Assembly: GCF_003633715.1 (NCBI RefSeq)
Contig: NZ_RBIE01000001.1
Location: 1 to 64,000 of the forward strand
Direction of reading: 5' to 3'
Length of the DNA: 64,000 bases
From: Thermovibrio guaymasensis
GTDB lineage: Bacteria; Aquificota; Aquificia; Desulfurobacteriales; Desulfurobacteriaceae
Program-made: the position numbers and the translations under genes
The notes under the pieces: model-generated
Told to the model about the DNA's origin: nothing
What the model saw: the letters and a program-made list of their open reading frames with translations, nothing else
The model's database searches: none
Part shown: positions 3,870 to 12,680 of the stretch, piece by piece
How positions within the stretch are numbered: the stretch's first letter is position 1
Layout: the number at the start of each line of letters is the position of its first letter

Positions 3870-6800
3870 ATGGGAAAAGTTCAAAAAACCACCCCCACGC
3901 CACAAAAAGAAAGAATAACTACCTTCCCAAGAAAAAGTTTCGCAAAAAGGGAAGAGATTTATCCGGTTCCAGACCTTCTTCAGTTTCCCTTTGAGTCTTA
4001 CGAAAGGTTCTTACAGTTAAACAAAGCTCCCCATGAAAGGGAAAATGTAGGTCTTGAGTCTGCATTTAGACAGGCTTTCCCGATTATTGATGAATCAACG
4101 GGAGTTGAGATTCACTATAAAGGATACGAAATCGGTGACTGGTACTGTAAGTGTGGAAGGTTTCAGGGGCTTGGCGGAAAAGGAGTTGTCTGCCCCAAGT
4201 GTGGAATGGAAGTTGTGTTCAGACCTAAGTACACTCCCGATGAGTGTAAGGAGAGGGGAATTACTTACAGTGCTCCTTTAAGGGTTCTCTTTGAGCTACA
4301 CGTATGGCAAAAGGATCCAAAGACGGGAGAGAAGATAGCTCCAATCATCAAAGAAAATAAGATGTACTTTGGGGAAATTCCCCTTATGACCGATAGGGCC
4401 ACCTTCATAATCAACGGAACCGAGAAGGTGGTCGTAAGTCAGCTCCACCGTTCTCCAGGTCTGTTCTTTAAAAACGAAGTTTCAAAGACAACCCAGGTTG
4501 CAAGGATTATTGATATAGCAAGCATTATCCCTGCAATGGGATCCTGGCTTGAGTTTGAAATTCCTTACAACGATATTCTCTACGCAAAGATAGATAGGAA
4601 GAGAAGGTTTATCGGTACTTACCTTCTTAGGGCTTTTGGCCTTAAGACTGATGAAGAGATATTGAGCGTCTTCTACGGTGATGCTATAGAGACTCTCAGG
4701 GTGGAGAATGGCGAAATAGTTGACGCTGAAACTGGAGAGGTTAAGAAACCTGAGGAACTTACAGATTATTACCTGGTTTCAGACGTAGTTGATCCTGAAA
4801 CTGGAGAGGTTATTCAGGAGGCCTACGAGGAGCTCTCAACGAGTTCAAGGAAACTTCCTGAAGGAGCCGAGTTTAAAGCAATAAGTAAGAAGAAGACTCC
4901 ATACGGAGCCGTAATAGTTAATACCCTTAGAAAAGAGAAAAGGGATAGGGTTCGCGAGAAGATAGAGGACCCTCTCATTGCCGCTTACGTTGAGATCTTC
5001 AGGAAGGTTCGTCCTGGGGATACTGCAACTGTTGAAGGAGCGAGGAAGCTCTTTGAATCAATGTTCTTCAGCACTAAGAACTACGACCTATCAAGGGTTG
5101 GTAGGGCCAAAATTAACGAAAAGGTCTATCCAAAGGAGAAGTTAGAAAAATTAACCAAAGAAGACCTTAAACAGATAGAGTGGTTACCTCCTCTAAGGCT
5201 TGCAGAGGACATCCTTAACGAAGAAGGAGACATCGTTGTTCCTAAGGGAACCTTAATAACCCCTGAAGTTGCCCTTAAACTTGCCGCTCAGGATAAGGAA
5301 GAGTTTAAAGTAGAGCCAGATTACGATGATGCTGGAAGGATTCTCCACAAGGCGGATATTGTAGGTGCAGTTAAGGCTTTAATGGAAGTTCATGCTGAAA
5401 TCCGTCCCTACGACGACATTGACCACCTCGGAAACAGAAGGGTAAGGGGTGTTGGAGAGCTTGCAGAGATAGCCTTTAAATCGGGACTCTTTAAGCTTGA
5501 AAAAGCGGTAAAGGAGAAGTTGGCAGTTGCAGATATTGATTCTGTAATGCCTCAGGACTTAATAAATCCAAGGACTGCCCTCAATCCCCTTAAGGAGTTC
5601 TTCACTTTAACCTCCCTTTGCCAGTTTATGGACCAGACGAACCCCCTTGCCGAGACGACCCACAAGAGGAGGCTTTCTGCTCTAGGTCCTGGTGGACTAA
5701 CGAGGGAAAGGGCAGGATTTGAGGTCCGTGACGTTCACCCCTCACACTACGGAAGGATCTGTCCAATTGAGACTCCCGAAGGCCAGAACATCGGTCTTAT
5801 TAACTCACTTACAACTTACGGAAGGATTAACTGGCTCGGCTTTTTAGAGACTCCTTATAGGAAAGTTGTTAACGGAAAGGTTACTGATGAAATCGTTTAC
5901 ATGACTGCCGACGAGGAGGAGAACTACGTAATAGCTCAGGCTAACGCTCCTGTTGATGAGAACGGCTACATTAAGTCTGATACTGTAATGGCCCGCCATA
6001 AGGCGGAGTTTAAGCTGGTTAAGAGGGAAGAAGTCCAGTTCATGGACGTTTCTCCAAAGCAGGTATTTTCCGTTTCTTCTTCGTTAATTCCATTCCTTGA
6101 GCACGACGACGCAAACAGGGCCCTTATGGGTTCTAACATGCAGCGTCAGGCAGTTCCGCTCATTAAGACAGAGGCTCCCTTTGTTGCAACTGGAATGGAG
6201 AAAGAGGTTGCACTCTACAGCCGTAGTGCTGTAGTTGCCAAGCGTTCAGGTGTTGTAGAGAGCGTTACTGCAGACAAGATAATTGTCAAGGTTGATCCAG
6301 AGGAGATTGAGGAGAGCGGTCTTTCTGTTGATACCGGATTTGACGTTTACAACCTCAAGAAGTTCCAGAAGTCAAACCAGAAAACCTGTATAAACCAGAG
6401 GCCAATAGTTAAGAAGGGTCAGAGGGTTAAGAGAGGTCAGATTATCGCCGACGGACCTTCAATGGAAAATGGAGAGCTGGCCCTCGGTAAGAACGTCCTT
6501 GTAGCCTTCATGCCGTGGAGAGGTTACAACTTTGAGGACGCCATCTTAGTTAGCGAAAGGCTCTTGAAGGACGACGTCTATACCTCTATACACATTCAGG
6601 AGTTTGAGTGTGAAGCAGTAGAGACGAAGTTAGGAAAAGAGGAAATTACCAGAGACATTCCTAATGTTTCTGAGTCGGCCCTTAGGCACCTTGATGAGTC
6701 TGGAATAGTTAGGATTGGAACTTACGTTAAGCCTGGAGATATTCTCGTCGGAAAGGTTACTCCTAAAGGTGAGCAGGTCTTAACTCCTGAGGAGAAACTC

Positions 6801-8204
6801 CTTCAGGCAATCTTTGGAGAGAAGGCTAAAGGAGTTAAGGATACCTCCTTAAGGGTTCCCCACGGAGTTGAGGGAGTTGTAATTGACGTAAAGATCCTCT
6901 CTAGGAAAGGAGAGGAGAAGGATCCTAGAACTCAGCTTATTGAGGCTGAAGAGAAGGCAAAGCTTGAGAGGGAAAAGCAGGAAGAGATTAACCTTATTAA
7001 AAAGGACAGGGATAGGAAGGCGGCTGAGCTTATTCTCGGTAAGAGGGTAAGAGAGGACGTTTACGATGCTGCTGGAAACCTCTTAATCTCCGCTGGTGAG
7101 GAAATTACAGAGGATAAAGTTGATGAGCTTGTCTTCTTTGCCCTCAGGAAGCCTTCAATAATTGACGATGAGAAAGTAGTTGAGGAGCTTAAGAAGATTA
7201 GGCTCAGGGCCGTTGATAAGATTGCCTTAGTGGAGAACATCTACGAAGAGAAGAAGGCAGCAATTGAGATGGGTCATGAGCTGCCGGCAGGCGTTAACAA
7301 GAAGGTTAAGGTTTACATAGCCACAAAGCGTAAGCTGACGATCGGTGATAAGATGTCAGGTCGCCACGGAAACAAAGGTGTTATTTCCCAAATTAGGCCT
7401 GTTGAGGATATGCCCTTCCTTGAGGATGGAACTCCTGTAGACATTGTTCTTAACCCTCTCGGCGTTCCCTCACGTATGAACGTTGGACAGATACTTGAAG
7501 TTCACCTTGGGCTTGCTGCTAAAGAGCTTGGAAAGAAGATAGAGAGGTTGATGAAAGAAGGTTTAGATAAGGTTCGTCAGGAGATTAAGGCTATCTACAA
7601 CGATGAGAGGATTAACAAGCTGATTGATAGCCTTTCTGATGATGAGCTTAGAGAGGTTGCTAAGAAACTCTCTAAGGGAATCAGGTTTGAGTCTCCGATA
7701 TTTGACGGAGCTACAGAGGAGGAGATTAAAGCTCTACTTAAGAGGGCAGGGCTTCCTGAAACAGGACAGCTTACCCTCTACGATGGATTAACCGGAGAGC
7801 CTTTTGACCAGGACGTTACAGTTGGTTATATGTACATGCTCAAGCTAATTCACCTTGCTGACGATAAGATTCACGCCCGTTCAACGGGTCCTTACTCCCT
7901 CATTACACAGCAGCCTCTCGGTGGTAAGGCTCAGTTTGGAGGACAGAGGTTCGGTGAGATGGAGGTGTGGGCACTTGAAGCTTACGGTGCAGCCTACACC
8001 CTCCAGGAGATGCTAACCGTCAAGTCTGACGATGTTGAAGGACGTTCAAGAGTTTACGAGGCAATTGTTAAAGGTAAGTACTCCTTTGAGCCGGGACTTC
8101 CTGAGTCCTTCAACGTTCTTGTTAGAGAACTCAAAGCTCTCGCCCTTGACGTTAAGTTCATAAAGGAGCTTGAGGAAGAAGAGGGCGAAGGAGAGGTTAA
8201 CTAA
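3870..8204 (+). CDS. rpoB: DNA-directed RNA polymerase beta subunit, with inserted zinc-ribbon motif
   Basis: This 1444-residue beta subunit is longer than E. coli RpoB (1342). Family landmarks are present: [10 protein letters not shown] near 130, the fork/rifampicin region around [10 protein letters not shown] with [13 protein letters not shown], and [11 protein letters not shown] near the C-terminal third. Between GYEIGD (85-90) and [12 protein letters not shown] there is a short insert with cysteines 93, 95, 108 and 111. Their spacing is identical to the zinc ribbon of RpoC in this window. A further charged segment (about 1025-1090) is also extra. ATG 3870 follows a GGAAGAGGAG site. Confidence 0.97.

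Positions 8205-8258: not shown

Positions 8259-12680
<4,422 letters not shown>

Follow-up and report, generated by a model that had tools for sequence, protein, structure and literature searches.

A zinc-ribbon-type insert in the RNA polymerase beta subunit of Aquificota and other bacteria, likely derived from the beta-prime zinc-binding domain

Background

The closest known counterpart of the element described here is the zinc-binding domain (ZBD) at the N-terminus of the beta-prime subunit of RNA polymerase (RpoC, or gamma), the cysteines of which, in E. coli, are C70-C72-C85-C88. A second point of reference is provided by the lineage-specific insertions of RNA polymerase, in the nomenclature of Lane and Darst. 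Like these, the RpoB ribbon is inserted between conserved blocks of the beta subunit and is found in some phyla only, but it is set apart by its size of 28 residues combined with a putative metal site. The numbered insertions of E. coli and Thermus beta, namely, beta-i4, i9, i11 and i12 (PMC2939025), all differ from the ribbon site; given that the E. coli insertion Si1 is named beta-i4 (PMC6970531), lower-numbered beta insertions exist, and one of those in the Lane and Darst catalogue may be the ribbon site. The BEAN insertional domains of the beta subunit are likewise inserted in RpoB at lineage-specific places, but consist of helices and strands arranged in two bracket-like elements, whereas the ribbon insert has short strands only in AlphaFold2 models; the text on the BEAN domains mentions neither zinc nor a ribbon (PMC11515920). 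No zinc site in RpoB is mentioned in the literature searched, to which the older surveys by Lane and Darst (2010) and by Iyer et al. (2004) do not belong; the novelty of the RpoB ribbon is uncertain.

Results and discussion

The insert and its place in the polymerase

The window, that is, the whole stretch of 64,000 nucleotides from Thermovibrio guaymasensis that was analysed, encodes RpoB, the beta subunit, of 1444 aa (3870..8204, plus strand; open reading frame; NCBIfam TIGR02013 rpoB, 1710.8 bits), with the gene for the beta-prime subunit RpoC, of 1473 aa, next downstream (8259..12680, plus strand). Alignment with E. coli K-12 RpoB using MAFFT delineates an insert of 28 residues, 91-118 (4140..4223, plus strand), at a point where E77 of the E. 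coli protein is directly joined to P78. The insert contains the four-cysteine zinc-ribbon motif C93-x-C95-x12-C108-x2-C111 (4146..4202, plus strand; translation of the open reading frame and AlphaFold2), codon 93 starting exactly at 4146 and codon 111 ending exactly at 4202. The spacing of the cysteines, C-x-C-x12-C-x2-C, is identical to that in the beta-prime ZBD, C70-x-C72-x12-C85-x2-C88 (8466..8522, plus strand), the likely source of the ribbon. Thus, the translation and the E. coli alignment bear out the coordinates, the spacing and the ribbon-less E. coli RpoB that had been given in an earlier note on this DNA. The likeness also includes the leading W/Y, C-G after the first cysteine pair, Y/F, and G-V/I-V ahead of the third cysteine followed by C-x-x-C-G-x-E-V, with 12 of 25 residues identical between the RpoB ribbon and the RpoC ZBD over the stretch from W to V.

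The insert had been assigned to the beta lobe, but both the alignment and the structure comparison move it to the beta1, or protrusion, domain. AlphaFold2 models, run without zinc on 34 sequences, contain short strands at the ribbon both in RpoB 1-614 (mean pLDDT 81.5, rising to about 90-91 over residues 91-120) and in an 84-residue piece (mean pLDDT 83). A Foldseek search with the model matched RpoB chains including that of 3mlq, a crystal structure that combines a Thermus beta1 fragment and the Mfd interaction domain, so that the ribbon site belongs to the beta1/protrusion domain and not to the lobe; the ribbon itself is apparently present in none of the PDB matches listed for RpoB. The same domain of the Thermovibrio protein includes I-K-E at residues 160-162 (4347..4355, plus strand), aligned with I117-E119 of E. 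coli beta, an I-K-E motif that contacts Mfd. The beta1 domain, identified as such in 3mlq, binds Mfd (PMC7672476), and the protrusion contacts NusG (PMC6391919) as well as Mfd (PMC7864632).

The NusG of Desulfurobacteriaceae (654-1394 in the window) has an insert of its own, at 930-998, with four cysteines (residues 93, 95, 100 and 115), and in the remaining Aquificota NusG proteins read, this insert contains two. This NusG insert was considered as a general partner of the ribbon and rejected, the other carriers for which NusG was found having no such insert.

Spread among bacteria

The insert is present in all 79 Aquificota loci read, and all 54 distinct inserts among these have the four cysteines, so that the motif is not due to chance. 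It comes in two forms: C-x-C-x12-C-x2-C in Desulfurobacteriaceae and one other sampled family of the same order, and a C-x2-C form with a longer loop in Aquificaceae, Hydrogenothermaceae and one further family. Beyond Aquificota, a small separate phylum, reached via loci L056 and L057, has the insert in all nine genomes (eight read across it and one cut by a contig end), and single ribbons are found in further, distantly related lineages, for example L227-L231, L234-L237 and L239, the ZBD-type ligand pattern C-x-C-x12-C-x2-C being present also in non-Aquificota lineages with a single ribbon. In L242, L243 and L246-L251, the ribbon takes a longer, double form that mostly has eight cysteines, the first and last cysteine pairs being separated by a second CxxC-rich stretch. 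In yet other lineages (L232, L233, L238, L240 and L241), the length of the insert and the L-G-G loop are kept, but the ligand cysteines are gone, three of them or all four. That most or all of the ligands disappear together in these lineages, while all four are retained in every distinct Aquificota insert, suggests that they are selected jointly, as a metal site. Surveys within the phyla of two carriers covered groups of one and five genomes, too few to give a prevalence.

The insert is missing in the loci read from Bacillota, Actinomycetota and Latescibacterota and in a clade of 14 rows in the RpoB tree, and no carriers were found among the viral contigs scanned. It is, accordingly, a lineage-specific insertion of the polymerase, with one site at which some bacterial lineages have it and others do not. 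That it is a trait of Aquificota and Campylobacterota was not supported: a genome of the Campylobacterota type with a fused rpoB-rpoC gene of 2903 aa (L169) lacks the insert, and many other lineages have it. Such fusion has been reported for Helicobacter and Wolinella (PMC1557499).

Two side observations concern particular records. At the same RpoB site, L252 and L253 (the same places as L208 and L209) have a different-looking cysteine-rich stretch, e.g. CKNCPQIKLRKKCLFDDC; the one of the two that was placed in the RpoB tree falls among rows without the insert. On a contig labelled Gammaproteobacteria (L073; QOAS01000133.1), the RpoB insert region is almost the same as the one in an Aquificota family, and this record is probably misnamed.

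A neutral loop and the likely role of the ribbon

Apart from its location, the RpoB ribbon differs systematically from the ZBD in one respect only, the loop between the cysteine pairs. The net charge of this loop is +4.51 in RpoC (99 sequences, range +3 to +5) versus +0.18 in RpoB (22 sequences, range -3 to +2), with 4.7 and 1.3 lysines or arginines, respectively, in the same sets. In place of the basic loop that characterizes the beta-prime ZBD, and that the RpoB ribbon lacks, there is L-G-G/A: L and G are invariant at ribbon positions 11 and 12, and the next position is mostly G.

This change bears directly on a possible but doubtful scenario under which the ribbon, while of the same origin, would be a second arm opposite the beta-prime ZBD and would touch upstream promoter or duplex DNA. 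The upstream duplex indeed borders the protrusion (PMC7864632, PMC6391919), and the Thermovibrio ribbon includes several basic residues (K94, R97, K105, K110 and R118); across lineages, however, the loop is on average neutral, and in some lineages the insert is kept without its cysteines. Because the loop is neutral in RpoB and basic in RpoC, a copied nucleic-acid contact is disfavoured, and a structural or protein-docking knob is favoured. Judging from the sequences, then, contact of the RpoB ribbon with DNA via the loop is unlikely, and the ribbon is probably a zinc-stabilised knob that docks proteins.

Specific likeness to the beta-prime ZBD

The view of the insert as a zinc ribbon resembling, specifically, the beta-prime ZBD was upheld by each of several comparisons. 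When a 53-aa RpoB stretch alone was searched against PDB with phmmer, only beta-prime or gamma chains appeared among the best 60 matches (best E 9e-5), and the ribbon of a second lineage again retrieved only such chains among the matches listed. In an NCBIfam scan with window-type ribbons from four lineages, only RpoC/gamma models matched, with best E values from 1.7e-5 to 0.012. A ZBD profile built solely from bacteria without the insert was then run on all reading frames of 28 whole genomes. RpoC was the top match in every one, and the RpoB ribbon was the second match in 14 of the 16 carrier genomes, those in which the ribbon is of the CxC type, single or double, at E values from 2.7e-8 to 6.8e-3 (2.6e-7 in T. 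guaymasensis), and was weak in the other two (G207, E 0.27; G423, E 0.42). No place besides RpoC and the RpoB ribbon fell below E 0.07 in the 28 genomes, and in those of them without the insert, with lost cysteines or with the Aquificaceae form, the profile did not match RpoB. The similarity between ribbon and RpoC persists (z 4.4-5.6) when everything but the fixed Cys and Gly is shuffled.

These results also speak to the unlikely alternative that an unrelated small zinc ribbon in RpoB converged on the ZBD, both being C-x-C/C-x2-C knuckles. Zinc ribbons are short and recurrent, and the CxxC...CxxC form of Aquificaceae and Hydrogenothermaceae is not recognised as ZBD-like, matching instead archaeal Rpo12 (subunit P) and other generic ribbons. 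The best PDB match of this form is the zinc ribbon of archaeal Rpo12/eukaryotic RPB12 (E 1.7e-4), which, in contrast to the RpoB ribbon, is a separate small subunit and is absent among the matches listed for the window-type (CxC) ribbons; the TerY_C metal-binding domain of Pfam gives a sub-threshold match to two RpoB ribbons. Convergence is, however, hard to square with RpoB being the sole additional ZBD-like place in 14 genomes, or with a match that reaches beyond the ligands to W, Y/F, G-V-V and E-V. The comparison involves approximately 25 residues, a length over which homology is not provable against strong convergence, and derivation of the RpoB insert from the beta-prime ZBD is the likeliest reading of the sequences.

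Age of the proposed copy

In a tree of 25 columns only, 17 RpoB ribbons lie on one side of a branch (SH-aLRT 97.7) that separates them from 72 RpoC ZBDs. The RpoC of its own genome is never the best match of a ribbon, ranking from 5 to 76 of 99, so that the copying appears to have been old, and the DNA identity of only 57% (43 of 75 bases) between the RpoB-ribbon and RpoC-ZBD stretches speaks against a recent copy. On both figures, a recent origin from the neighbouring rpoC, whether by duplication or by gene conversion, was rejected. A recent duplication is also at odds with ribbons of all lineages sharing one branch apart from the RpoC ZBDs and, in general, not being closest to their own RpoC. 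It had been allowed that the motif could prove to be an ancient feature of RpoB with a fold unlike that of the RpoC ribbon; ancient it is, but it is related to the latter in sequence.

For the history of the insert across bacteria, an RpoB tree was built from 91 rows and 1156 columns leaving out the N-terminal region with the insert (a quick search, with open forks, unrooted). On this tree, the state of the insert requires six changes, and neither a single clade of all carriers (p-AU 0.76) nor one of the carriers together with the fused genome (p-AU 0.89) is rejected, so a single gain, unproven as it is, would suffice. It is improbable that RpoB already had the ribbon in the ancestor of all bacteria, with later loss on the other side of the tree: parsimony on an unrooted tree with an arbitrary root cannot separate gain from loss, and the stretch in L252 and L253, at least one of them across the tree, is possibly related, but Bacillota, Actinomycetota and Latescibacterota have no ribbon at the site in the loci read, and the resemblance to beta-prime points to a derived copy.

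Conclusions

Taken as a whole, the observations are probably best explained by a single, ancient copying of the ZBD into the beta protrusion, where it became a zinc-bound docking or structural knob. Under this scenario, approximately 28 codons of rpoC would have been copied once, long ago, into the beta1 (protrusion) domain of the neighbouring rpoB; the ribbon would then have been inherited mostly vertically in Aquificota and several other phyla and lost in some lineages. The four RpoB cysteines would bind one zinc, holding a rigid knob, and in the copy the basic loop of the ZBD would have turned into the conserved neutral L-G-G/A loop. This knob would most likely serve as a structural element or as a dock for proteins on the upstream face, at which NusG, Mfd and the upstream duplex meet, and not as a second copy of the nucleic-acid contact of beta-prime. 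The broader proposition, to which we give about even weight, is that a domain was duplicated from one catalytic subunit of bacterial RNA polymerase into the other, an ancient ZBD of beta-prime having been moved into the beta protrusion and repurposed as a docking site in several phyla; the repurposing could have involved neutralisation of the loop, addition of a second cysteine-rich ribbon in some lineages and stripping of the cysteines in others.

The model RNA polymerases, those of E. coli, Thermus, Bacillus and mycobacteria, have no such ribbon, and mechanistic models therefore omit a putative metal site close to NusG, Mfd and the upstream DNA. The spread of the ribbon, along with its double-ribbon and cysteine-loss forms, also provides a rare shared character that bears on how Aquificota and related phyla branch, which has long been disputed. 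If the proposed scenario is true, the upstream face of the polymerase would offer a docking site in several phyla for which no polymerase structure appears to have been solved.
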